Shown here one piece after another: positions 10,799 to 34,469 of a stretch of DNA of 64,000 bases (position 1 is the first letter of the stretch; each line of letters starts with the position of its first letter). The DNA comes from Candidatus Hydrogenedentota bacterium (GTDB lineage: Bacteria > Hydrogenedentota > Hydrogenedentia > Hydrogenedentales > JAEUWI01): the NCBI GenBank assembly GCA_016791475.1, contig JAEUWI010000003.1, positions 124,001-188,000 of the forward strand, written 5' to 3'. The notes beneath the pieces are model-generated. The model was not told the DNA's origin, ran no database searches, and saw only the letters and a list, made by a program, of their open reading frames with translations. The position numbers and the translations under genes are program-made.

Positions 10799-11407
10799 AT
10801 GGACGAGTTATCAACGTATAGAGCGGCAGGCGCGGCGGACCTCTCGGATGAAGCGCTTATGGCCCGCGTAAAAATGGGCGACGGGGATGCATTCGCCGTC
10901 CTCGTAAGGCGCTACGAGGAGCCCCTGTTCAATTATGCCAGCAAAATGCTCGGAGACAGAGCCGAGGCCGAAGATGTGTTTCAAGAGACTTTTTTGCGCG
11001 TCCACCTCCACGGGCATCGGTTCTGGGGACATGCCCCCTTTCGCCCCTGGCTTTATCGCATCGCCACGAACCTCTGCAAGGATCGGCTGCGCTACCGAAA
11101 ACGGCGCCCGGAAGTCCCGGTCACATCGCTGCGCCACGACGAAGACTGGCCGGACCCCGTCGATCAGTGGGCCGCGACTTCGCAGCGCCCCGACGAAGCA
11201 GCCCTGGCTCGGGAACGCTCCATCATCATGGAACGCGCCTTGGCCGATCTTAGCGTGAAGCATCGGGCCGTCTTTCTCATGGCCCATCAGGAAGGACTGT
11301 CCTATGCGGAGATCGCCAAAGCCCTCTGGATTCCCGTGGGCACGGTGAAATCCCGCATGAACAAGGCGGTCAACCGGCTCATGGCGGCCATGGAGGCCTT
11401 GGACTAA
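10799..11407 (+). CDS. ECF-type RNA polymerase sigma factor
   Basis: A 202-residue sigma-E-like factor. Region 2 (about 28-100) contains the Asp-Ala-Glu type signature RAEAEDVFQETFLRVH and FRPWLYRIATNLCKDRLR. Region 4 (about 140-195) has the helix-turn-helix LSYAEIAKALWIPVGTVKSRMNKA. The stop TAA shares its last base with the ATG of the next gene, which is a zinc-finger anti-sigma-like protein, so the pair is translationally coupled. It would direct polymerase to its own regulon when released. The target genes are not known. Confidence 0.95.
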   Translation: MDELSTYRAAGAADLSDEALMARVKMGDGDAFAVLVRRYEEPLFNYASKMLGDRAEAEDVFQETFLRVHLHGHRFWGHAPFRPWLYRIATNLCKDRLRYRKRRPEVPVTSLRHDEDWPDPVDQWAATSQRPDEAALARERSIIMERALADLSVKHRAVFLMAHQEGLSYAEIAKALWIPVGTVKSRMNKAVNRLMAAMEALD

Positions 11408-16388: not shown

Positions 16389-17468
16389 TCACGGCATCGC
16401 CAAAGGCTTGCTCGTTAACAGCCCTATGCCCCTGCCTGAGGTGCCGACCGCGTTGTAGAAGAGGTAGCGCGTATCGTTACTGGGGTTGTACACCAAAGAC
16501 ACCTTGTGGGCATGCTCCGCGTCCAGCCCACCGGGGTGACCGCCTGCTCGGTAGAGGGGCTCCGGGTCCACCGTCCACGTAAGAAGATCGCGCGAAAAGG
16601 CCGCCATGATGTGGGCATGGCCCTGACCTACACCGAAGAAGATCATGATCCAGTGATCGCCGTCGCGGTAGACCTTGGGGTCGGAGGAGAAGACCTCATT
16701 GAAGCTGCCTTTCGGCCCCACAGGGATGACGGGGTTCTTCGGGTGACGGCGCCAGTCGAGGAGATTCTCTGAAAAGGCTACACCCGATTGTTCCACACCG
16801 CCCTCGGCGGCGTTGTAAAAATTGTAGAAGCGCCCTTCGTACTCCACAAGCCACGGCTGATAAATGCAATCCTTTTCCCAGGTACCTGCGTCATCCTGAA
16901 AGATGGAAAGGATGGGCCGGTCCACCGCCCGACGCCAGGAAAGGCCATCGTCGCTCACCGCCACGCCTTCATAGCCGGGACGGAGCTCGTAGCCGCCCTG
17001 CCGGGGGTAGGCGCCGTAAAGTGACCAGTATCTCCCGTCGTGTTTCTTTAGCGTGCGCCGGTCATTGGTGCCGTAGCGCTCGTAGAGGTAGGCGCCCAGC
17101 ACCACACCGCCGTGGTCAAAACTACCCGCTTCACCAAAGCCCATGGCGAGGCGGGGCTGAGTCCAGCGAACCAAATCGGTGCTTTCGGCGATGTAGGACT
17201 GGTAGCCCCGGCCGTCGAATCCGATGAAGGACATAAACCACCGGGGATCGTCTGGAAGCTGGAATACCGTGGGGACGTCCGTCTTCTCGATGCCCGCGTG
17301 GCCTGGAATTTCGGGGGCCGCGGGTATCACAAGTTCGGGGTAGTAGTGCCAGCCGCGCCAGGGCGCCGACCATGCTGCGATGGTATCGGGAGAAATTTCC
17401 TCGCCGTTGACACGTACAACGGTAATTAGCAGCAGCGCGATCAGGATATGTGGACGAAGTATCGTCAT
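16389..17468 (-). CDS. Secreted five-bladed beta-propeller glycosidase-like protein (GH32/43/130-like)
   Basis: A 359-residue protein with a signal peptide (MTILRPHILIALLLITVVRVNG). The repeated pattern of bladed strands (YQSYIAESTDLVRW, GVAVSDDGLSWRRA, GVAFSENLLDWRRH, MAAFSRDLLTW) is typical of five-bladed propeller glycosidases and phosphorylases. Candidate acidic residues lie in TWEKDCIYQPW and FSSDPKVYRDGDHW. The exact family and substrate cannot be fixed by eye. Its start overlaps the stop of the Agl23-like gene by 4 bp, so they are co-translated. Confidence 0.78.
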   Translation of the reverse strand: MTILRPHILIALLLITVVRVNGEEISPDTIAAWSAPWRGWHYYPELVIPAAPEIPGHAGIEKTDVPTVFQLPDDPRWFMSFIGFDGRGYQSYIAESTDLVRWTQPRLAMGFGEAGSFDHGGVVLGAYLYERYGTNDRRTLKKHDGRYWSLYGAYPRQGGYELRPGYEGVAVSDDGLSWRRAVDRPILSIFQDDAGTWEKDCIYQPWLVEYEGRFYNFYNAAEGGVEQSGVAFSENLLDWRRHPKNPVIPVGPKGSFNEVFSSDPKVYRDGDHWIMIFFGVGQGHAHIMAAFSRDLLTWTVDPEPLYRAGGHPGGLDAEHAHKVSLVYNPSNDTRYLFYNAVGTSGRGIGLLTSKPLAMP

Positions 17469-19081
17469 GGGGCCGTCTCCGCGGGGCCGCTCCGCTTGGC
17501 CATGAAGGCATCCCAGAGCTCTTTTCGAATGAAGGTGGGCATGAGTACGCCGGGCCGCAGGCCATTCATTTCCACCTGATATTCATCTTTGAGCCGGGGC
17601 TGCAGGGCACCGGCGATCTCGGGGGAGGTCAAAATGACATCGGCGTCGGGGGATTCGGGAAAATTTGGCCAATAGCCCACATTCGGATAGCGCCGCAGAT
17701 ACCACGGCAGCGGCCAGTAGTCGCCGTCGAATCGGAAGACGTTGATGTGAATCTGATCGCCTCGGGGATGGACCGCGGCCAGATCGGTCACGCGCTCGGT
17801 CAAGCGGCGAATGGCGGAACTGGTATGGGCATAGACGTAAGGATTGCGCACATCCGCGCCGTAGGTGAACGACCCGCGCCACGCCTGGCCCGCGAGCTGA
17901 GCCGTGGCGGCCAAAATCAATACCCCGAACAGGAATCGAACCCATACTGCGCGCTGCAATCCTGTCAGGCATTGCGCCCCCAAGCCCGCCAGGAGGCAGA
18001 GGGGATGGAGGAAGATGAGGAGGTTCCAGGGCGTCTTGTAGGGAATCAGAGAGAAGCCCACAACGAGAAAGAGGGTGTAAAGTGCCAGGAAACGAGGAAA
18101 CGCCGCACCGCAGTCCACGATTGCCCCATCCCGATCGGTCCGATCCGTCTGATCGGTCCGATTAGGACCCCAAAGCCCCCACAAGACGCCGATCAGCCCC
18201 AAACCCAGTATCAGCCCTTCGCTCCACTTCGGGCCCGCCTCGCGGTAGGTCCAGGCCAGCAGCGAAATGTAGTAATACCACGGCTGATCGTGCAGGGCGC
18301 TGCTTCCGTGGCCTTCCGCGCGGTTGAGATAGGTCGTGTAGGTCAGGAGCGAATCCAGCGGACCGCGCCAGTGCGTGAAAAACGAGGAGAAAAAGAGCAC
18401 CGAAATCGCCAGGGCGAGCCCCAATCCCGCGCCGAGGTGCCTCCAGTTCAGGGTCAGGGCTATTGCCCGCCGCGCGACGAATTTCTCCCACGCGACGACA
18501 CAGGCCAGCGCCGCGACCATGGCGAAAACGACGAGTACGCTCGTTTCCTTCGTGGCGTGGAGGAGTCCCAGACAGAGCCCGGCTCCCAGCGCCCAGCCAA
18601 TGCGGCGGGAACTCAGGTAGTGGTGGCCGCACCAGAGCAACCCCGCCGCGAAAAAGACGAAGGAAATCTCCTGCACGTAGTAGCGGCTGTAATACACCAG
18701 CCCGTGAGAGACCGCCGTCAACAGGGCGGCCCACAGTCCCGCCCGGCGATCGATGGGGGAGACAATCAGCCACGACAGCAACACCAGCCCCAGCCCGAAG
18801 AAAGCCGGGACGAGGCGGATCATGGGCTCGGTCATCTCCGCCGCGTTGTGCGCCCCGGCGATCCACAGAATCGGTAAAGTCAGATAGTAGAGCGTTGGCC
18901 CATGGTGCTCGAAGGGATCATAAGCATATTCGCCTTTCGCCAACAGCACGGAAGTCTTCATCGCTTGATTCGCCTCGTCGCCATGCATCGGGCGATAACC
19001 GAGGTCGTAGAAACGAAGTACGGCGGCGACGAGGAGGATGAGGGCCAGGGTGGCCACATGGAAAACGGGAAACTTCGTCAA
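17465..19081 (-). CDS. Agl23-like membrane glycosyltransferase (GT39/PMT type)
   Basis: A polytopic membrane protein of about 538 residues. The segment after the first helix, RPMHGDEANQAMKT, carries the acidic pair typical of ArnT/PMT-type transferases, and EHHGPTLYYLTLP follows. Both are hallmarks of the Agl23-like family, which transfers sugars from polyprenyl carriers outside the membrane. About ten hydrophobic segments are visible. The frame is open to 19282, but that part encodes the inverted repeat at 19126-19200, so I chose the TTG at 19081. A stretch NRTDQTDRTDRD in a loop is encoded by a palindromic repeat found elsewhere. The start is uncertain. Confidence 0.8.
   Translation of the reverse strand: MTKFPVFHVATLALILLVAAVLRFYDLGYRPMHGDEANQAMKTSVLLAKGEYAYDPFEHHGPTLYYLTLPILWIAGAHNAAEMTEPMIRLVPAFFGLGLVLLSWLIVSPIDRRAGLWAALLTAVSHGLVYYSRYYVQEISFVFFAAGLLWCGHHYLSSRRIGWALGAGLCLGLLHATKETSVLVVFAMVAALACVVAWEKFVARRAIALTLNWRHLGAGLGLALAISVLFFSSFFTHWRGPLDSLLTYTTYLNRAEGHGSSALHDQPWYYYISLLAWTYREAGPKWSEGLILGLGLIGVLWGLWGPNRTDQTDRTDRDGAIVDCGAAFPRFLALYTLFLVVGFSLIPYKTPWNLLIFLHPLCLLAGLGAQCLTGLQRAVWVRFLFGVLILAATAQLAGQAWRGSFTYGADVRNPYVYAHTSSAIRRLTERVTDLAAVHPRGDQIHINVFRFDGDYWPLPWYLRRYPNVGYWPNFPESPDADVILTSPEIAGALQPRLKDEYQVEMNGLRPGVLMPTFIRKELWDAFMAKRSGPAETAP
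18131..18166. repeat. GATCGGTCCGAT-type palindromic repeat inside a coding gene
   Basis: The run of CGATCGGTCC / GATCCGTCT / GATCGGTCC units is read in frame as TDQTDRTDRD in the membrane glycosyltransferase. Related units occur in the intergenic stretches 50475-50533 and 55100-55152, in both orientations. Confidence 0.75.
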
Positions 19082-19125
19082 TGTATCTCTGTGCCTTCGT
19101 AGTCTATGTGGCGGTAGCCAATGAA

Positions 19126-19200
19126 AACCTATGTGTTCTTTCCGTTCTTTTTGGTTAGATTCCTTTTGAACCACAAAGAACGCAAAGAACACATAGGTCT
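19126..19200. repeat. Imperfect inverted repeat of the 'cacaaagaacgcaaagaacac' type
   Basis: CCTATGTGTTCTTTCCGTTC near 19128 and GAACGCAAAGAACACATAGG near 19179 are nearly perfect complements, with arms of about 30 bp around a short spacer. It lies between the first discoidin-like gene and the Agl23-like gene and would form a long hairpin in the transcript, possibly a terminator or processing site. Confidence 0.7.
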
Positions 19201-19244
19201 CCGCTGCAAGACTTCGGTTAAGTCCGAGTGTGTTGCGGCTGATG

Positions 19245-19955
19245 TCAATTATCTGATTTCTTACCCCATACTTCGATTTCAACTACTTGGTTCGTGGACG
19301 TGTTCGTGTTGCCGTTGCCGTAAAAGCGAATGTAGCGGGCCTTGATTCCCTTCAGATCGAAAAGTCGTCCGTAGTTTCTTTCCAGGTACTCCTTGTCTTT
19401 TCCCGCGCCCAGATGAGAAGTGTTGTCGATATCGTTGTTGTAAAACTCGGTTACGTCCTTCTTGAACTCAGGATCGTTCGAGGCCTGACCTATGACATCA
19501 AAATAAATATGGATTCCACGGAAGTTGTGCCAAAGGAGGATGGCATAGACCTCGAATTCTTCCTGGAGGTCGACCTGAGTCCATTGTAACCCTTCGGGAA
19601 GTTCCAGAACGTTTTCTGGTTCGTAGCCTTTCTTGCCATCAACCACTTGTTCCAGTTTTCCCCGCAGCGGCGAAGCACTGGAGCTTACAGGCTTTTGCCT
19701 GGAGACAATTGCGGTGCCCACGGGCGCTTTAAACGGTGGACGTTCCTTATAGGTAAACTCCTCCAAATTCGGAAACCATCCATCCAGAGGCGTGCCCCCA
19801 AAGAATGGCTCGGGCAGCTCAAATTGTAATTCGGCTTCTTCGGGAAGTTGCTCTTCGCCGTGGACGGGCTGGATGGCGGTCCATAGACTGGCGAAGAGCA
19901 ACACAGCAATCCACATGGTTTTCCCATCCGTTATTCTGAATTCTCTATTCACCAT
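19245..19955 (-). CDS. Discoidin-like (F5/8 type C) secreted protein, paralogue 1
   Basis: A 236-residue protein with an internal signal-peptide-like segment (MWIAVLLFASLWTAIQPVHG). It is the most divergent of five adjacent paralogues. It keeps the shared pattern: FFGGTPLDGWFPNLE, GLQWTQVDLQEEFEVYAIL, FYNNDIDNTSHLGAGKDKEY, and a C-terminal EIEVWGK. The later half matches the F5/8C galactose-binding jelly-roll (WxQxDL, RYIRFYG, EIEVWG). I chose ATG 19955, which overlaps the stop of paralogue 2 by 11 bp; the alternative ATG 19916 gives a shorter n-region. It has WHNFRG where the others have WHFHEG. Ligand unknown; a sugar or surface ligand is inferred. Confidence 0.85.
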   Translation of the reverse strand: MVNREFRITDGKTMWIAVLLFASLWTAIQPVHGEEQLPEEAELQFELPEPFFGGTPLDGWFPNLEEFTYKERPPFKAPVGTAIVSRQKPVSSSASPLRGKLEQVVDGKKGYEPENVLELPEGLQWTQVDLQEEFEVYAILLWHNFRGIHIYFDVIGQASNDPEFKKDVTEFYNNDIDNTSHLGAGKDKEYLERNYGRLFDLKGIKARYIRFYGNGNTNTSTNQVVEIEVWGKKSDN

Positions 19956-20610: not shown

Positions 20611-20808
20611 GCGTACTTCAAAACCTTTCGCAACTAAAAAAACTGGCGGGTCCGATCCCGCTGTCAATGGTTAAGAATATGGTTCATCCGGTTTCAGCGT
20701 ACGTTTTCCATTGGAGTCGAGAGCGCATGCGGCTTCTGCTCTTTTTCTTCGAGAAGTCTCGCAAGAAAAGCCCACCACCGCCCCAGACTCTTTTTTATTT
20801 TCGTTTTT

Positions 20809-21127
20809 GCCCCGGAGGGGCTACGGAACTTAGCCCAGGGTGAAGCGAGGTACGAGCGAAACCCTGGGAAACCGAGTGGCGATATGGCTCAACCCCCAAA
20901 GGGGGTGACGGAAACGCTGTCAATTCCATCGGAGACCGGTTGATTTTGATGTCTTGACACCATCAAAAGCAACAGTCTACACATAGATTCTCGTGTCGAG
21001 AGCGCTTTACCTCAGCTCGTCTTCCGCCACTCCCTTCGGGAGTTTAAGACATGGGTATTCCGCAGATCCCAGCGTTTCGCTCGTTCCTCTCTTCACGCTG
21101 GGCTAAGTTCCGCGGCCCCTCCGGAGC
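20809..21127. repeat. 319-bp inverted repeat with arms of about 65 bp
   Basis: The left arm (20809-20872) and right arm (21062-21127) match almost throughout when one is reversed. Shared pieces include CCGGAGGGG, GGAACTTAGCCCAG and ACGAGCGAAAC. Smaller hairpins (CCCCCAAAGGGGG, ACTCCCTTCGGGAGT) sit inside. The whole gap 20611-21207 has no gene that I can support. This resembles the dispersed palindromic repeats common in planctomycete-like genomes. Confidence 0.78.
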
Positions 21128-21207
21128 CAGGACAATCGCAAAAAGGTTAACGCGCGCGATCGCAACAAAAGTGAAAATGTACGATCAAACCTGATGAACC
21201 AACGACA

Positions 21208-21873
21208 TCATTTTCCCCATACCTCCACTTCGATAAAGTGGTTGAAGTCGCTGGCCGTGCTGCCTTTGCCGTAGACACGCAGGTAGCGGCCCTTGGCACC
21301 CTTGGCATCGATTAGGCGGCCCTGGTAGCTCTCCTGATACTCGTTGTCTTCCCCGACGCCGAGGCCGGCGGAATTGTCGAAATCGTTGTTGTACAGCGTG
21401 GATACGCCGGTCTTGAACTCAGGATCCTCGGAAAGTTGAACCACCAGATCGAAGTATACCCGCTGCCCTTCGTGAAAGTGCCAGATCAGCACGGCATAGA
21501 GGGTACTCGACTTCTCCAAGTCGATTTGCACCCACTGGAGCCCTTCCGGGAGTTCGATCTGGCTCGTTGTCGCATAGTCCTTGTCCCCGTCGGTGAGGCG
21601 CTTCAACTCACCAACCGTCGGATCGGCGCTGGCTTTTACCGGCTTGCCCTTCGAGATTATGGCGGTGCCTTTGGGCGCCATAAAGGGCGCGCGAGGTTTG
21701 ATGCTTTTTTCTTCAAGCTTCGGTCCCCAGTAGTTAATGGGCGTCCCGCCGAAAAACTCCCGGGGTAGATCTATCTTGATGGCTTCGGTCTCTTCGGCAC
21801 GGGCACCCGCGCACGAAATGAGGGCAGCGGTGGCAAAGACGCAGAGTTTGCGAGTGAGTTCCTGGATGTTCAT
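21208..21873 (-). CDS. Discoidin-like (F5/8 type C) secreted protein, paralogue 3
   Basis: A 221-residue secreted protein starting MNIQELTRKLCVFATAALISC with AAGGAGG just before the ATG. A cleavage site is likely after AGARA. The domain shows LPREFFGGTPINYWGPKLE, GLQWVQIDLEKSSTLYAVLIWHFHEG, DDPEF-like EDPEFKTGVSTLYNNDFDNSAGLGVGEDNEY, and it ends FNHFIEVEVWGK. It is close to the domains of paralogues 4 and 5. It lies 85 bp downstream of the sigma-factor fusion on the same strand, so the two may share a transcript. Confidence 0.9.
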   Translation of the reverse strand: MNIQELTRKLCVFATAALISCAGARAEETEAIKIDLPREFFGGTPINYWGPKLEEKSIKPRAPFMAPKGTAIISKGKPVKASADPTVGELKRLTDGDKDYATTSQIELPEGLQWVQIDLEKSSTLYAVLIWHFHEGQRVYFDLVVQLSEDPEFKTGVSTLYNNDFDNSAGLGVGEDNEYQESYQGRLIDAKGAKGRYLRVYGKGSTASDFNHFIEVEVWGK

Positions 21874-21957: not shown

Positions 21958-23847
21958 TCACTTGCCCCAGACCTCCACTTCAATAAAGTGGTTGAAGTCG
22001 CTGGCGGTGCTGCCTTTGCCGTAGACGCGGAGGTAACGGCCCCTGACACCCTTGGCGTCGATGAGGCGTCCCTTGTTGCTCTCGATGTATTCCTTGTCTT
22101 CGCCCGCGCCCAGACCGGCGGAGTTGTCGTAGTCGTTGTTGTAGATCGTCGTCACGCCCCTGTTGAACTCGGGGTCGTCGGATACCTGGGCCACGAGGTC
22201 GAAATAGATCCGTTTGCCTTCGTGGAAATGCCACACGAGCACGGCGTAGATTTCGCTGGTCTTTTCCAGGTCAATCTGCACCCACTGCAGGCCTTCGGGG
22301 AGTTCGATGAGGCTGGTCTTGGCGTAGTTCTTGTCTCCGTCGGTCAGTTGCTTCAGCGTGCCCACCGTGGGCTCGCTGCTGGTCGTAACGGGTTTACCGG
22401 CGGAAATAATTGTCGTCCCGCTGGGAGCCAGGAACGGGGGACGCTCCTTGTAATCTTCCGCTTCAAGATTCGGACCCCAATAGTCGAGGGGCGTGCCGCC
22501 GAAGAAGGCTTCGGGGAGCTCTACCTGAATAGGCTCCATCGTGCTGGCTACCGCAAACGGTTCGGACTCCGGTGTGGCTTCTTCCGGATCTACAACGGAA
22601 GTGGCTGGAGCTGTTTCATGCTCGGGACGCTCAACTACGGGAGACTCTACCGAAGGCATCTTCCCGGTCTGATCGGGCGCGGGTTTGGGCTCCAGCGGTG
22701 GCTCAGCCACTGCAAGCACGTCGTCCGTGGATACTGAATCCCTGGTCTCCGGCGATTCAACCGGTGGCACAGGCGTTGGTATTTCAGTTTCGGCCTCTGG
22801 CGTAGGACGCAGCGGTTGTTCATCTGAGGCTACTCGATCTTTTTCGGGCCTGGAATCCTCGGTCTCGGACGATTCAACGGGTGGCAATGAGGACGCCACT
22901 TCGGTTGCGGGTTCCGGCATGGGATTCTGCGGCTGTTCATTCGAAGCAGCAAGGTCCTCTTCTGGGGCAGGCTCTTCGACCACCGTAGCCGCAACCGACG
23001 GTACCTGCACAGGCACCGTATTCCCCATTTCGGGCGATTCAACAGGCGCGGTGGAGGTGACCTGACTCGTGGGGGATTCGATGGGCGGAGTCCCCGTCTT
23101 CAGCGTCCAGGCAATAAGGCCAGCGAGCGCCGCGAGGACGATGATACCGAAAACTTTCGATGCGACAAGGGTACTCTTTCGGGACGGTACGGCGCGAGGT
23201 GTGGAAGGGACATTTCCCGCACCCGCGAGGGACAACTTGCCCAGGTTGGCGGCCAGGTTGGCACTGACCATCTCAGAAGTGCTCTCTTCGAGGGCGGTGC
23301 CCACTACGCTGGCGGATGCGGTTATGCCACGGCGATGAAGATCCCTGCGAACACGCTCGATTCCCTTGTTGATGCGGTAGCGAACCGTTGGATCCGCAAT
23401 CCCCAGTTCGCGACCGATCTCGGCGTGGGTCTGTCCTTTGAGAAAATGTCGAATGATGGATTCACGATACTTTACCGGCAAACTCGCAATGGCCTCGTCG
23501 ATATGGGGGTAGATGTCATCCCAACCGACTGTGTAACTCGAAGGCCGACCCATGGCATATTGGATTTCCCTCTCGCGCCTGCGGGACTCCCGCTTAAGCC
23601 GATCCAGGCAGCGGTGCGTGGCCAGCGTGTGGAGCAGTCCCCCCAACGAATTTCCGACCAGGGTGTGAACGGCGCCCAGTTCCATGAAACACTCCTGGGT
23701 CACATCCTCCGCGTCCGCGCGATTGCGCAGAATCCGGTTGCATGTGTTGAACACCATGCCCGAGTGGCGCATGACCAGAAGGGTGAATGCCTCGCTATCG
23801 GAACTTTGTTGCCACCGTCGCAACAGGGCCACATCGGAAATGTCCAT
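21958..23847 (-). CDS. Membrane-tethered ECF sigma factor fused to a discoidin-like domain (paralogue 4)
   Basis: A 629-residue fusion. Residues 1-170 are a full ECF sigma factor: region 2 with RNRADAEDVTQECFMELG (42-59) and region 4 with the helix-turn-helix GQTHAEIGRELGIADPTVRYRI (138-159). One membrane helix is at about 232-249 (VFGIIVLAALAGLIAWTL). Residues about 251-436 are a Pro/Glu/Ser linker with three or more imperfect repeats around PPVESPET. The last 193 residues are the discoidin-like domain shared with the neighbours. GGAGG lies five bases before the ATG. The inferred topology is sigma in the cytoplasm and sensor outside. No separate anti-sigma gene is adjacent. The frame is unbroken with uniform codon use, so the fusion looks real. 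Confidence 0.9.
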   Translation of the reverse strand: MDISDVALLRRWQQSSDSEAFTLLVMRHSGMVFNTCNRILRNRADAEDVTQECFMELGAVHTLVGNSLGGLLHTLATHRCLDRLKRESRRREREIQYAMGRPSSYTVGWDDIYPHIDEAIASLPVKYRESIIRHFLKGQTHAEIGRELGIADPTVRYRINKGIERVRRDLHRRGITASASVVGTALEESTSEMVSANLAANLGKLSLAGAGNVPSTPRAVPSRKSTLVASKVFGIIVLAALAGLIAWTLKTGTPPIESPTSQVTSTAPVESPEMGNTVPVQVPSVAATVVEEPAPEEDLAASNEQPQNPMPEPATEVASSLPPVESSETEDSRPEKDRVASDEQPLRPTPEAETEIPTPVPPVESPETRDSVSTDDVLAVAEPPLEPKPAPDQTGKMPSVESPVVERPEHETAPATSVVDPEEATPESEPFAVASTMEPIQVELPEAFFGGTPLDYWGPNLEAEDYKERPPFLAPSGTTIISAGKPVTTSSEPTVGTLKQLTDGDKNYAKTSLIELPEGLQWVQIDLEKTSEIYAVLVWHFHEGKRIYFDLVAQVSDDPEFNRGVTTIYNNDYDNSAGLGAGEDKEYIESNKGRLIDAKGVRGRYLRVYGKGSTASDFNHFIEVEVWGK

Positions 23848-23900: not shown

Positions 23901-23940
23901 GAAAAATAAAAAGCGCCCCCGACGAGATGTCGGAGGCGTC
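23901..23940 (-). terminator. Rho-independent terminator after paralogue 5
   Basis: On the minus strand a GC-rich stem, GACGCCTCCGACA pairing with TGTCGGGGGCGC-like sequence (23913-23940), is followed by TTTTTATTTTTC. It separates the transcript of paralogue 5 from the sigma-factor fusion that starts 54 bases further on. Confidence 0.78.
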
Positions 23941-23960: not shown

Positions 23961-24629
23961 TTACTTACCCCAGACTTCCACTTCGATGAAGTGGTTGAAG
24001 TCGCTGGCGGTGCTGCCCTTGCCGTAGACGCGGAGGTAACGGCCCTTCGTGCCCTTGGCGTCGATGAGACGGCCCTTGTTGCTCTCGATGTATTCTTTGT
24101 CTTCGCCCACACCCAGACCGGCGGAGTTGTCGAAGTCGTTGTTGTAGATCGTGGTCACGCCCGTCTTGAATTCGGGATCGTCGGAAACCTGGGCCACGAG
24201 GTCGAAGTACACCCGTTTGCCTTCGTGGAAGTGCCACACCAGCACGGCGTAGATTTCGCTGGTCTTTTCCAGGTCAATCTGCACCCACTGGAGGCCTTCG
24301 GGGAGCTCGATAAGGCTGGTCTTGGCGTAGTCCTTGTCGCCGTCGGTGAGCTGCTTCAGCTCGCCCACGGTCGGGTCGCCACTGGCCTTTACGGCCTTGC
24401 CCTTGGAAATCACGGCCGTACCCTTGGGGGCCATGAAAGGCGCGCGGTCCTTGTAGTCTTCCGCTTCAAGGTTCGGGCCCCAGTAATCGAGGGGCGTGCC
24501 GCCGAAGAAGGCTTCGGGAAGCTCGATCTTGATGGCTTCCATTTCCTGGGCCACCGCGAACGGCATCACCAGCCCGCCGAGGGCCGCCATCGCCGCGCCG
24601 GCACACACCACAACACGCATTTTGTTCAT
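23961..24629 (-). CDS. Discoidin-like (F5/8 type C) secreted protein, paralogue 5
   Basis: A 222-residue secreted protein with a signal peptide (MNKMRVVVCAGAAMAALGGL, cleavage near VAQ). Its mature domain is nearly the same as the C-terminal domain of the sigma fusion, with about 26 differences in 193 residues by eye. It includes LPEAFFGGTPLDYWGPNLE, ELPEGLQWVQIDLEKTSE, VLVWHFHEGKRVYF and FNHFIEVEVWGK. AAGGAGA precedes the ATG. It has its own leader and a strong terminator, so it is probably a separate transcript. It may be a soluble partner or competitor of the tethered sensor domain. Confidence 0.92.
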   Translation of the reverse strand: MNKMRVVVCAGAAMAALGGLVMPFAVAQEMEAIKIELPEAFFGGTPLDYWGPNLEAEDYKDRAPFMAPKGTAVISKGKAVKASGDPTVGELKQLTDGDKDYAKTSLIELPEGLQWVQIDLEKTSEIYAVLVWHFHEGKRVYFDLVAQVSDDPEFKTGVTTIYNNDFDNSAGLGVGEDKEYIESNKGRLIDAKGTKGRYLRVYGKGSTASDFNHFIEVEVWGK

Positions 24630-24660: not shown

Positions 24661-24678
24661 AACAAGTAGAAACTTGTT
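24661..24678. promoter_or_regulatory. 18-bp dyad in the leader of paralogue 5
   Basis: AACAAGTAGAAACTTGTT is an almost perfect dyad about 32 bases upstream of the start codon. Upstream on the minus strand, TTGCTA and TATACC are 16 bases apart and could be a promoter. The dyad could be an operator or an RNA hairpin; its role is not known. Confidence 0.4.
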
Positions 24679-25163: not shown

Positions 25164-27344
25164 TCACGCCCGCACGGTTTCCGTCGCAAACACCGTCTCC
25201 ACCAGGCGCAGGGCCTCGGCGCGAAAGCCGTGGAGCTGGTTCACTTTGGGCTCCAACCGCGCGATGATGGCCTCCCGCTCCCGCCGGATTTCTTCTTCAC
25301 GGGCCAGCAGGTCGTCGCATTCCCGCTGGACGGCTCCAATCGCATTGTCCACTTCGGACTGCACGGCATCGAAAAAGGCCGTACCGCGCCGGTTCAGGTA
25401 TTCGGAGACCGACTCGGCCACGGGGGCAGCCCGGTTGCCCTGCTTGTCTTTTCCGCCCTGAAGCAGCATGCCCATGACGTTCTGGCGGATGACCGGCTCC
25501 AGCTTCTTGATCCACTTGTCCTCGCTCCAGGCCAGCCGGGTAAGGAAGCCGCCCACGGCGCCGATCAGCGCACCGATGCCCGCGCCGATGGCCGTACCAA
25601 TCACGGGTACGATGGTGGTGCCCACGGCGGCACCGGTGGCAATGCCTACAAGCGCACCGCCGGTGCCAAAGGCCACGTAGCTCTTCGTCATGGAGGTTTC
25701 GAGGGTAAAGTCTTCGATACCCGCCGGCTGGATCATCTGCACCCGCAGCTCCCGGATCTCGCCGAGTTTCTCCACGATGGCAGCACGGGCTTCCTGCTCG
25801 GCGGCTTCCATGGTCGTCTGGAGGCGGACCATGATGGAGGACACGAATTCGTCCACCTGATGCTCCGTCTGGGCGGAGAGGGGCTGAAACTTCTGACGGC
25901 GCGCCTGCTTCAGGTTGTTGTCCGTACGCAGCCAGGTCAGGATAGGGTCTATTACTTTTTCTTTGATGGCCTTTTCGTTCATTTCGCCGCGAAACTGGGC
26001 CTCGTAGCCTTCGAGCGTTTCGCCGTCCAGCGTGCCACCCTTGCAGCGAATGCGGTAGCGGTTCAGTACGTCGGCGCTGCTGGCCCGTATCTCTTCCAGC
26101 CGGCTCATGAGCCGCTCGCGGTTCGCCCGAAGCTCGTTGAACATGGAGGGGTCCCTGGCCAGGGTCAATTCGTTCATGAGCCCGGCGGCGAAGGCGTCCG
26201 CCCGCTCGCCCACAAAGTGAACGGCGGTCTCCAGAACAGCTCCGGCCTTGTTTTCGTTGAGCAGATAATCAACGAGGCGTTCTTTCAAATGGGGCAGGCG
26301 GCTCTGGAGCATAAGATAACTTGACAGCTCGGCCACCGGCTCTTCCTCGTCGGTGATTCGCTCGGCGACGCTTGTGGGAATGGAAACCTTATTGTCATCC
26401 AGCACTTCAGCCAGTGCGATGTACCCCTGATCAAGCTCCTGGGCCCGCAAGGCGCGGTAGCCGGAGAAATAGAAGATTTCCGAGTCTTCGGGGATGTCGT
26501 GGCGCACGAAGGCCTGCACCAGACTCTTTGCCGGGCCGCGGGCCCCGCGGATATCGATTTCGTTGCTCTCCAGCTTGTCCGCCTTGTTGAGCACGAAAAA
26601 GACCCGTCGCCCGCGCCATTTTATGATGCGCTTGATAAAATTCAGATCGTGGATATTCCCGGCAAAACCGCTGTCCACAAAAGAGATGACCAGGTGGCTA
26701 CGTTCGATGACCCCGTAGGTGATTTCCTGGCGCGTCTCGGAAACACTATGGACGCCGGGGGTATCCACGAAGACGATGTCTTCTTCCAGCACTTCCGAGG
26801 GCAGGGAAAGATCGAGTTCTTCAATCTTTTCGCGCAGGGGGGCCAGATGGGGAAAGGACTCATCCGCCGCCACGGTCACCAGCGGCTCCAGGCTCTTCCG
26901 CATCCAGTCGGGGTGGTGGCCCGCGAAGCGAATCTCGATCCGGGCGCGATCCCCGGAAATATCGATGCTTGCCGGAACACCCTGCAGCGCGAGAATCAGG
27001 GCCTCTTGCTCTTCCTCGGAAACAGGTTCGCTGAGATTCATGGACAGCGTCATCTGCTCGCCGCGCTGAATGAAGGTCAGCTTCGAGGTGCATTCCTCCA
27101 CGTCCATCGGCAGGTAACCGCCGCCCAGAAAGGCATTGATGGCCGTGGACTTGCCCACGTTGAAGGTGCCCAGGAAGACCACGCGGTACTTGCCATCTTC
27201 CACACAGCGGCGCTGATAGAGCAGCGACTTCGCCTCGAACTTCTGGTTGCCGTGAAAGTCCTCGTCCCGTTCAACGAATTCACTGAGCGTGTCCAGCGCG
27301 GAAAGGGCCCAGGCGCGGTGCGCCTCCATATCCTTGAACTTCAT
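25164..27344 (-). CDS. Bacterial dynamin-like GTPase, large subunit-type
   Basis: A 726-residue dynamin-family GTPase. The G domain has the P-loop GTFNVGKSTAINAF (about 59-72), the switch threonine in ECTSKLTF, DTPGV as G3 and NKAD as G4. A long helical stalk follows. Near residue 565-610 a Gly/Ala-rich hydrophobic segment (GALVGIATGAAVGTTIVPVIG and onward) looks like a membrane-inserting paddle. The end is coiled coil (REEEIRREREAIIARL). Such proteins remodel or protect membranes. It overlaps the second GTPase gene by 4 bp, so the two are made together. Its stop lies two bases from the palindrome. Confidence 0.88.
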   Translation of the reverse strand: MKFKDMEAHRAWALSALDTLSEFVERDEDFHGNQKFEAKSLLYQRRCVEDGKYRVVFLGTFNVGKSTAINAFLGGGYLPMDVEECTSKLTFIQRGEQMTLSMNLSEPVSEEEQEALILALQGVPASIDISGDRARIEIRFAGHHPDWMRKSLEPLVTVAADESFPHLAPLREKIEELDLSLPSEVLEEDIVFVDTPGVHSVSETRQEITYGVIERSHLVISFVDSGFAGNIHDLNFIKRIIKWRGRRVFFVLNKADKLESNEIDIRGARGPAKSLVQAFVRHDIPEDSEIFYFSGYRALRAQELDQGYIALAEVLDDNKVSIPTSVAERITDEEEPVAELSSYLMLQSRLPHLKERLVDYLLNENKAGAVLETAVHFVGERADAFAAGLMNELTLARDPSMFNELRANRERLMSRLEEIRASSADVLNRYRIRCKGGTLDGETLEGYEAQFRGEMNEKAIKEKVIDPILTWLRTDNNLKQARRQKFQPLSAQTEHQVDEFVSSIMVRLQTTMEAAEQEARAAIVEKLGEIRELRVQMIQPAGIEDFTLETSMTKSYVAFGTGGALVGIATGAAVGTTIVPVIGTAIGAGIGALIGAVGGFLTRLAWSEDKWIKKLEPVIRQNVMGMLLQGGKDKQGNRAAPVAESVSEYLNRRGTAFFDAVQSEVDNAIGAVQRECDDLLAREEEIRREREAIIARLEPKVNQLHGFRAEALRLVETVFATETVRA

Positions 27345-28171
27345 GCTTGCACTCCTTCATGGGACGACAGAAAGGAAGCGGCCAGAGGCATGGAGACCAC
27401 CGCGTCCAGCGCGGGACGAGGAAAGCGACGACCGCGAGCGGCCTCAAATTCGTACAGCGCGACGCGAAGCGCGTCAAAGCCGCTGTCGCATAATTCCCGC
27501 ACGCGGGCCTTCGTCCGGCAGCGGTATTCGTTTTTCGGCTCCAGGCGGAATTGCTCCAGGCGCGCTGAAATGGTGAAAAAGCGGGGGGCGGGATTGATGC
27601 CGTATTCTTCCATGCGCTGAGAGGCCTTCTGGTGAATCCGCTCGATTTCCTGGGCATTCAGGTGGTCGGCCTTGTTGGCAACCACCATGATCGAATCGCC
27701 GAATTGCTCCTGGTGAAAAGCGATAAAGTCCATCGTGTGCTTCGCGGCCCAATATTCGATATCCGTCACCACCAGCACCAATCCATCTTCCTGATCCTTC
27801 AAATCGGCGATTTCCAGCGACTCGCAGGCGTCCGTGGACATGCCCGCCGTGTCCACAAGAATCAGGTTGTTGAACGGGGCATGAACACAGCCCGCGGCCA
27901 GCGCCCGAAAAGCGGGAGGCTGCTCTTCCTCTTTCCGGAGGCGAAGAAACTCGTCGTGCGTCTTGGGTACAAGGCTGCCATCCTTCGCACTGACTGCGGC
28001 GAAGCGGTCGTGGTTCTCGGAGATACGGCAAAGGAAAGTGGGGAAGGCGCGGCCTTCCTCGCGGCTGGTGTGAAGCACTTCCTGCCGGAGCAGGGCGTTG
28101 AGCAGCGTGGATTTGCCCGTATTGTAATCCCCGACCACAAATACACACGGGGTGGGCGTGCTTTCCTGCAT
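27341..28171 (-). CDS. Dynamin-like GTPase partner, G domain only
   Basis: A 276-residue GTPase. It has the P-loop VVGDYNTGKSTLLNALL (about 12-28), the switch region TSREEGRAFPTF, LVDTAGM as G3 and NKAD as G4. It has little beyond the G domain: no long stalk and no hydrophobic paddle. It precedes the 726-residue dynamin-like protein with a 4-bp overlap. Bacterial dynamins often work as unequal pairs, so this is probably the partner subunit. A separate regulatory GTPase is the alternative. Confidence 0.83.
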   Translation of the reverse strand: MQESTPTPCVFVVGDYNTGKSTLLNALLRQEVLHTSREEGRAFPTFLCRISENHDRFAAVSAKDGSLVPKTHDEFLRLRKEEEQPPAFRALAAGCVHAPFNNLILVDTAGMSTDACESLEIADLKDQEDGLVLVVTDIEYWAAKHTMDFIAFHQEQFGDSIMVVANKADHLNAQEIERIHQKASQRMEEYGINPAPRFFTISARLEQFRLEPKNEYRCRTKARVRELCDSGFDALRVALYEFEAARGRRFPRPALDAVVSMPLAASFLSSHEGVQA

Positions 28172-33701: not shown

Positions 33702-34469
33702 TTAACGACGTTTGCGATCATCGAATTTGAAGATGTTGTCGACGGCTTCCCCAACCTTGTCGTTGGGCGATTTCTTCCCTTTGACTTCTTTGCGCCGCCG
33801 TTCGCGCCGGAAGCTGATGAACATCGGGAGGAGTTTCATATAAAGAAAGCCCACGCCCATGCCGCCGAAGTGGGTCACCCAGGATACCGAGGTGCCGTCG
33901 AGACTGGAAATCAAATTGAGCAGGAAGGCGATGAGCACGAGGGCCCGGGCGTTGATGGGCCAGGGGAAGTAGAGAAAGTAGAACTCGCGGTCGGGCTCCA
34001 CCATGGCAAAGGCGACCAGAACCCCCATGGCCGCGCCGCTCGCGCCGACTACATTGGTGACTTCGCCTTGCAGAAAATAGGGGAGGAGCGTGGCCAGCAC
34101 GCCACCGGCGCCGCAGGTCAGATAAAATCGAAAAAATGCGCGGGTGCCCAATACCCGTTCAACTTCCGGGCCGAACCAGTACAGGGAAAGCATGTTGCCC
34201 ACGAGGTGCATCAAGCCGCCGTGGAGAAACTGATAGGTGAGCGGGGTCCAGACGAATCCCGAGAGAAAGCGCTGCTGCTGGAAGCCAAACCAGGTGCTCA
34301 AAGCGCCCCCATAGAAGCCCGGTCGCTGGTTCAGCCACACCATCAGCGGATCCGAGAGAAGCTGCAGAGCGAATACGACGATGTTGACCAGAATCAGCCG
34401 TTGAACGGCCCAGGTAATTCGGGAACTGCCAAAGGCGTTGGATTCCATTGTGTACGAATATCGGCTCAT
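33702..34469 (-). CDS. Rhomboid family intramembrane serine protease
   Basis: A 255-residue six-helix membrane protease. The catalytic serine lies in VVGASGAAMG and the catalytic histidine in SWVTHFGGMGVGF. QFLHGGLMHLVGNMLSLYWFG carries the conserved HxxxN loop. The cytoplasmic tail is basic. The ATG at 34469 was preferred over a GTG at 34541, because the extra residues look non-homologous. Rhomboids release membrane-anchored factors by cutting inside the membrane. It lies between lepB and the J-domain gene. Confidence 0.92.
   Translation of the reverse strand: MSRYSYTMESNAFGSSRITWAVQRLILVNIVVFALQLLSDPLMVWLNQRPGFYGGALSTWFGFQQQRFLSGFVWTPLTYQFLHGGLMHLVGNMLSLYWFGPEVERVLGTRAFFRFYLTCGAGGVLATLLPYFLQGEVTNVVGASGAAMGVLVAFAMVEPDREFYFLYFPWPINARALVLIAFLLNLISSLDGTSVSWVTHFGGMGVGFLYMKLLPMFISFRRERRRKEVKGKKSPNDKVGEAVDNIFKFDDRKRR

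Follow-up and report, generated by a model that had tools for sequence, protein, structure and literature searches.

In ECF signalling, the sigma factor is usually paired with an anti-sigma factor that is a protein of its own. Among the closest described systems, the ECF52 protein SCO4117 of Streptomyces coelicolor is built from a sigma factor, a zinc finger, a TM segment, a Pro-rich stretch and a carbohydrate-binding module, in that order; proteolytic release was proposed for it, and ECF52 was described as exclusive to Actinobacteria (PMC5826349). IutY of Pseudomonas putida (ECF243) is a sigma/anti-sigma fusion that is cleaved by Prc and RseP (PMC8999054; PMC5411451). RsgI undergoes RseP cleavage inside its helix (PMC12203970), and ECF57 and other planctomycete ECF sigma factors bear large C-terminal extensions, which are WD40-like in ECF57 (PMC8999054).

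Here we describe P0001, a gene in a 64,000-nucleotide stretch of DNA (the window) from a Candidatus Hydrogenedentota bacterium, a member of an uncultured phylum. Its product joins a sigma factor, one membrane helix, a linker and an outside sensor domain in a single chain, and this architecture is well supported. A preliminary description of the window knew of no described system with exactly this layout beside soluble copies of its sensor; that no similar system is on record would be too strong a view, given SCO4117 (PMC5826349) and IutY (PMC8999054).

The P0001 protein

P0001 occupies positions 21958..23847 of the minus strand as one intact frame of 629 codons (ATG at 23847, stop at 21958-21960, 629 aa), with a GGAGG ribosome-binding site just 5' of the ATG. 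The sigma part contains region 2 (residues 24–90; 23578..23778, minus; Pfam PF04542 Sigma70_r2, E 2.3e-10) and region 4 (residues 116–164; 23356..23502, minus; Pfam PF08281 Sigma70_r4_2, E 5.1e-11). Both matches exceed the Pfam cut-off and are separated by a short gap; region 3 is absent. TIGR02937 also matches above its own cut-off, and the Foldseek matches of the sigma part are ECF sigma factor structures. Having regions 2 and 4 without region 3, P0001 is an ECF (sigma-70 group 4) sigma factor. No anti-sigma model matched P0001 in the Pfam search, and the Pfam and motif check found neither a zf-HC2 match nor an HxxxCxxC motif, the only cysteines being those at residues 36, 53 and 80. In the AlphaFold model of the sigma-TM part (pTM 0.44; a second model was computed for the neighbouring protein P0002), sigma region 4 is connected to the membrane helix by a pair of short helices and some disordered sequence. 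These juxtamembrane helices (residues 179–191 and 196–207; 23227..23313, minus) are kept across the sigma-TM family described below (alignment A3).

The single membrane helix (residues about 227–250; 23098..23169, minus; hydropathy 2.41) extends over residues 227–245 by hydropathy and 232–250 in the AlphaFold model. It leads into an extracytoplasmic linker of ~180 residues rich in Pro, Glu and Ser (residues 251–430; 22558..23097, minus), in which P, E, S, T and A make up 66% of the first 120 residues. The preliminary description, which gave no strand, had named the unbroken frame, both sigma regions, the single helix and the Pro/Glu/Ser linker; all four are confirmed, the sigma regions by the two Pfam matches, the helix by hydropathy and the AlphaFold model, and the linker by its composition. 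It had also proposed that the ECF sigma factor is tethered and senses through an external domain, and called for a topology prediction. Of 30 relatives, 27 have a greater net charge on the N-side of the helix, so an N-in/C-out topology fits, which speaks for that proposal.

The sensor domain and its secreted copies

The C-terminal 199 residues of P0001 (residues 431–629; 21961..22557, minus) match the adjoining secreted protein P0002 at 87% identity. The F5_F8_type_C_2 match in P0001 itself (residues 501–572, E 1.9e-4) lies under the Pfam gathering score; the F5/8 type C models give 22.4 bits against a cut-off of 27.8 and 19.5 against 28.2, and the relative L018 exceeds both cut-offs (34.3 and 30.3 bits). 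The AlphaFold model of P0002, made from 37 sequences, has a pLDDT of 89.7 and a pTM of 0.83. When this model was compared with the PDB by Foldseek, CBM32 and related sugar-binding modules ranked first, with 7d2a as the best match (E 1e-7, target-normalised TM 0.76); P0002 shares 18–19% identity with the best PDB matches. The sensor domain is predicted to adopt a discoidin-like β-sandwich fold of CBM32 type, and its ligand is probably extracytoplasmic and a glycan. The identity to P0002 and the CBM32-like P0002 model uphold the discoidin-like domain that was first recognised at the C-terminus.

This domain is present in 61 of 68 Hydrogenedentota genomes and in 37 of the 38 good ones. It occurs mostly as small secreted proteins, which outnumber the sigma-linked copies, and the free copies bear hydrophobic signal-type N-termini. 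These N-termini, together with the sensor found on anti-sigma-like proteins elsewhere (see below), favour the outside sensor role suggested for it initially. One partial copy, in another genome (G010:C4:60272-60697), carries an in-frame TAG.

The locus

P0001 is surrounded by secreted copies of its sensor domain, all on the minus strand: P0002 upstream (23961..24629), P0003 downstream (21208..21873), P0004 (19945..20610, start set at an in-frame ATG) and the divergent P0005 (19245..19916, start uncertain). The cluster is flanked by dynamin-like genes and by a TIGR03663 (Agl23-type) membrane glycosyltransferase-like gene (17465..19282, minus), a neighbour hinting at a glycan link. Genome G002 keeps the same cluster order without the sigma gene. 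The dynamin-like side consists of two adjoining GTPase genes (25164-28171), and relatives of one or both adjoin sensor-domain genes in G001, G002, G004 and G014; a TIGR03663/Agl23-type gene also adjoins sensor-domain genes at loci L020, L097, L099, L100, L102 and L107.

P0002 and P0001 are separated by a terminator-like hairpin matching the consensus (23914..23938, minus; a 10-bp stem, then CTTTTTATTT), so P0001 may be transcribed alone; terminator-like sites are about as numerous in the region as expected from shuffling. No ECF promoter motif was recognised by eye upstream of the cluster genes, and a promoter scan of the region gave no excess over shuffles. Upstream of P0002, the inverted repeat AACAAG-N6-CTTGTT (24661-24678) is a candidate operator or a hairpin of the 5' leader; the G001 orthologue has it too, but its loop differs. 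Between P0003 and P0004 lie nested inverted repeats (20680-21201) with arms of 78 nt (81% complementary) and 29 nt (86%); pieces of them recur on many contigs of the same genome, as a MITE-like element or another kind of dispersed element would. Elsewhere, the window contains a separate small ECF-like sigma gene without a membrane helix (10799-11407, plus; 202 aa) and, as had been pointed out, a rhomboid gene (~33828-34253, minus).

Authenticity of the fusion

The fusion with the sensor domain was found in G000 (P0001), G002, G156 and G157. In G002 the fusion spans two contigs that overlap exactly over 141 bases, and the joined product has 642 residues. It lies on a single contig in G157, where it has 750 aa and two sensor domains, and in G156, where it has 537 aa. 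A contig of G003 begins inside a Pro/Glu linker and continues into the sensor domain, and is probably a further case. The search of other genomes for the same architecture, advised in the preliminary description along with a check for an assembly join, thus yielded three further fusions besides the probable one, and the one-gene architecture survives. Because fused homologues exist in other assemblies, an assembly chimera was rejected as the origin of P0001; the homologues in G002, G156 and G157 likewise led to rejection of the view that sigma factor and sensor are always separate genes. No soluble-copy neighbours were seen around the fusions of these three genomes as far as the contigs extend. 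In G156 (L185 3780-6032), the fused gene stops after the first sensor domain and the second is a separate frame, unlike in G157, where the second is in frame with the first.

In the domain tree, the sensor half of P0001 clusters with its neighbours P0002 and P0003 (98/84 with P0002), so a local duplication or gene conversion fits. The domains of P0001 and P0002 differ at 12, 10 and 49 sites at codon positions 1, 2 and 3, respectively, and the changed codons comprise 40 synonymous and 21 non-synonymous ones. As the differences fall mostly at the third position, the P0001 domain appears to be under coding constraint.

A family of sigma-TM proteins

P0001 is one member of a large sigma-TM family with exchangeable ectodomains, since paralogues, relatives and Planctomycetota share the stem; it is no isolated case. 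The same genome encodes eight close paralogues of the P0001 sigma part in long frames, plus more distant ones. These eight share the sigma-TM stem and carry other ectodomains, mostly CarboxypepD_reg repeats. Among 40 related genomes, 18 contain a total of 68 sigma-part matches (counted at E 1e-25 or better), 66 of which lie in frames of at least 528 aa. Of the 31 retrieved stems, 30 have a helix a short way behind the sigma part, in the same position. In a Pfam survey of 28 family members, sigma regions 2 and 4 were matched in all 28, the ectodomains included CarboxypepD_reg (20), STN (3) and F5/8 type C (2), and P0001 again gave no zf-HC2 match. The stem also occurs in 7 of 99 genomes of Planctomycetota, where the sigma part likewise precedes a helix and a long C-terminal extension. 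Where related loci have named records, these are mostly from Candidatus Hydrogenedentota. No description of the family was found in the literature searched, and the main ECF classification, outside that search, may list it.

One-protein and two-protein designs

In five genomes (G026, G033, G159, G162 and G168), an ECF sigma gene is directly followed by a gene for a membrane protein that contains the sensor domain and has an anti-sigma-like N-terminus. The G033 protein matches zf-HC2 (E 9.5e-9); judged by eye, the G159 protein has a zinc-finger motif, and those of G026, G162 and G168 have anti-sigma-like N-termini without a zinc motif. In the G168 protein (L186 2990-6619), the sensor domain is followed by a von Willebrand factor A-like region, seen by eye.

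On the domain tree, the secreted, fused and anti-sigma-linked states require at least eight changes, and coupling to sigma control therefore arose repeatedly or was repeatedly exchanged. A single origin of all four fusions was borderline rejected by the AU test on the sigma tree (p 0.047). P0001 and the G002 fusion as one clade were not rejected on either tree (p 0.446 for sigma, 0.245 for the domain), so the fusion may have arisen once within the genus.

Proposed mechanism and alternatives

We think it fairly probable that P0001 is a one-protein transmembrane sigma system, controlled by a ligand, whose sigma part is freed by proteolysis, most likely intramembrane; the analogy with IutY, SCO4117 and RsgI makes proteolytic release under ligand control the likeliest way of working. 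The ECF sigma part would be anchored by its own helix to the cytoplasmic membrane, on the inner face, and the flexible Pro/Glu linker would extend the CBM32-like β-sandwich into the extracytoplasmic space, where the sensor domain may bind a glycan or other envelope ligand. Binding of the ligand, or its loss, would expose the stem to a site-1 protease, and an RseP-type site-2 protease would then cut the stem and free the sigma part. Until then, tethering and/or the conserved juxtamembrane helices would keep the sigma part inactive, in place of a separate anti-sigma domain. The P0001 sensor probably shares its ligand with the secreted copies nearby. The genome encodes an RseP-type M50 protease (E 9e-64) and two rhomboids, which are general proteases unlinked to the P0001 gene. 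A wider and tentative reading, which we hold possible though doubtful, covers the whole sigma-TM family: it would lack any anti-sigma domain and be controlled by the membrane tether, with the ectodomains setting the ligand and, at the P0001 locus, the tandem secreted copies competing for it or presenting it and so setting the threshold.

The main rival, which we regard as unlikely, is that the sigma factor works from the membrane in a CadC/ToxR-like manner, the ligand altering its oligomeric state or conformation without proteolysis. Given the absence of a classic anti-sigma domain, the sigma part might act while tethered: between sigma region 4 and the helix, P0001 lacks both a zinc anti-sigma motif and a predicted anti-sigma domain, and has two short helices and disorder instead. 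However, IutY, a membrane-anchored ECF fusion with an experimental mechanism, acts by release (PMC8999054), and relatives of the same phylum place the sensor on anti-sigma-like proteins, for which release is the usual logic. It is still less likely that the extracytoplasmic part is a mere envelope anchor or scaffold, for instance a surface glycan tether, with sigma activity set by expression level alone. The highly variable C-terminal parts of the sigma-TM family and the excess of secreted over sigma-linked domain copies would agree with an anchor, but the domain is joined to sigma control both in the one-protein and in the two-protein design, and across several families of the phylum; a sensor fits this better. 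Finally, a recent non-functional fusion, in which the duplicate of a secreted-domain gene became joined to a sigma-TM stem and has been drifting since, would account for the close kinship of the P0001 domain with that of adjacent P0002 (87% identity, 98/84) and for the syntenic G002 cluster without a sigma gene, but is very improbable in view of the frame being open throughout, the differences lying mostly at third codon positions and fused genes existing also in G002, G156 and G157.

Comparison with known systems

Ligand-controlled release from a single chain remains the preferred reading of P0001. ECF57 resembles P0001 in having a sigma part followed by a large C-terminal extension, a likeness drawn by description. 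That group is characterised by a group-specific sigma phylogeny, two linking cysteines and a WD40-like extension. CBM32 and F5/8 type C domains share the predicted fold of the P0001 sensor, which differs in being coupled to a sigma factor. SigI/RsgI of Clostridium thermocellum is alike in function, with an extracellular polysaccharide-binding sensor, a TM segment, regulated RseP proteolysis, a sigma output and many paralogues with varied ectodomains (PMC12203970; PMC4711584); it differs in comprising two proteins and a SigI-type sigma factor, and the likeness is drawn on function. The sigma-TM stem with its exchangeable ectodomains offers a catalogue of candidate sensors in hardly studied lineages and a possible scaffold for engineered biosensors.

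In IutY, too, sigma factor and membrane part form one chain and release follows a signal, but IutY works with a true anti-sigma part and an outer-membrane siderophore receptor, neither of which is seen for P0001. As the same sensor occurs within one phylum both in a sigma-TM-sensor single chain and in a pair of sigma factor and anti-sigma-like-TM-sensor protein, the two designs can be compared directly, and it can be asked whether a membrane tether can stand in for an anti-sigma factor. With ECF52, P0001 shares a Pro-rich extension and, going by its predicted fold, a carbohydrate-binding-like domain after the TM segment. ECF52 has a zinc finger between the sigma part and the TM segment, whereas P0001 has none; ECF52 is actinobacterial, whereas P0001 belongs to Hydrogenedentota and has a CBM32-like sensor. 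P0001 departs from ECF52 in lacking an anti-sigma domain, in its lineage, in a CBM32-like sensor accompanied by secreted copies, and in that both designs are present in one phylum.
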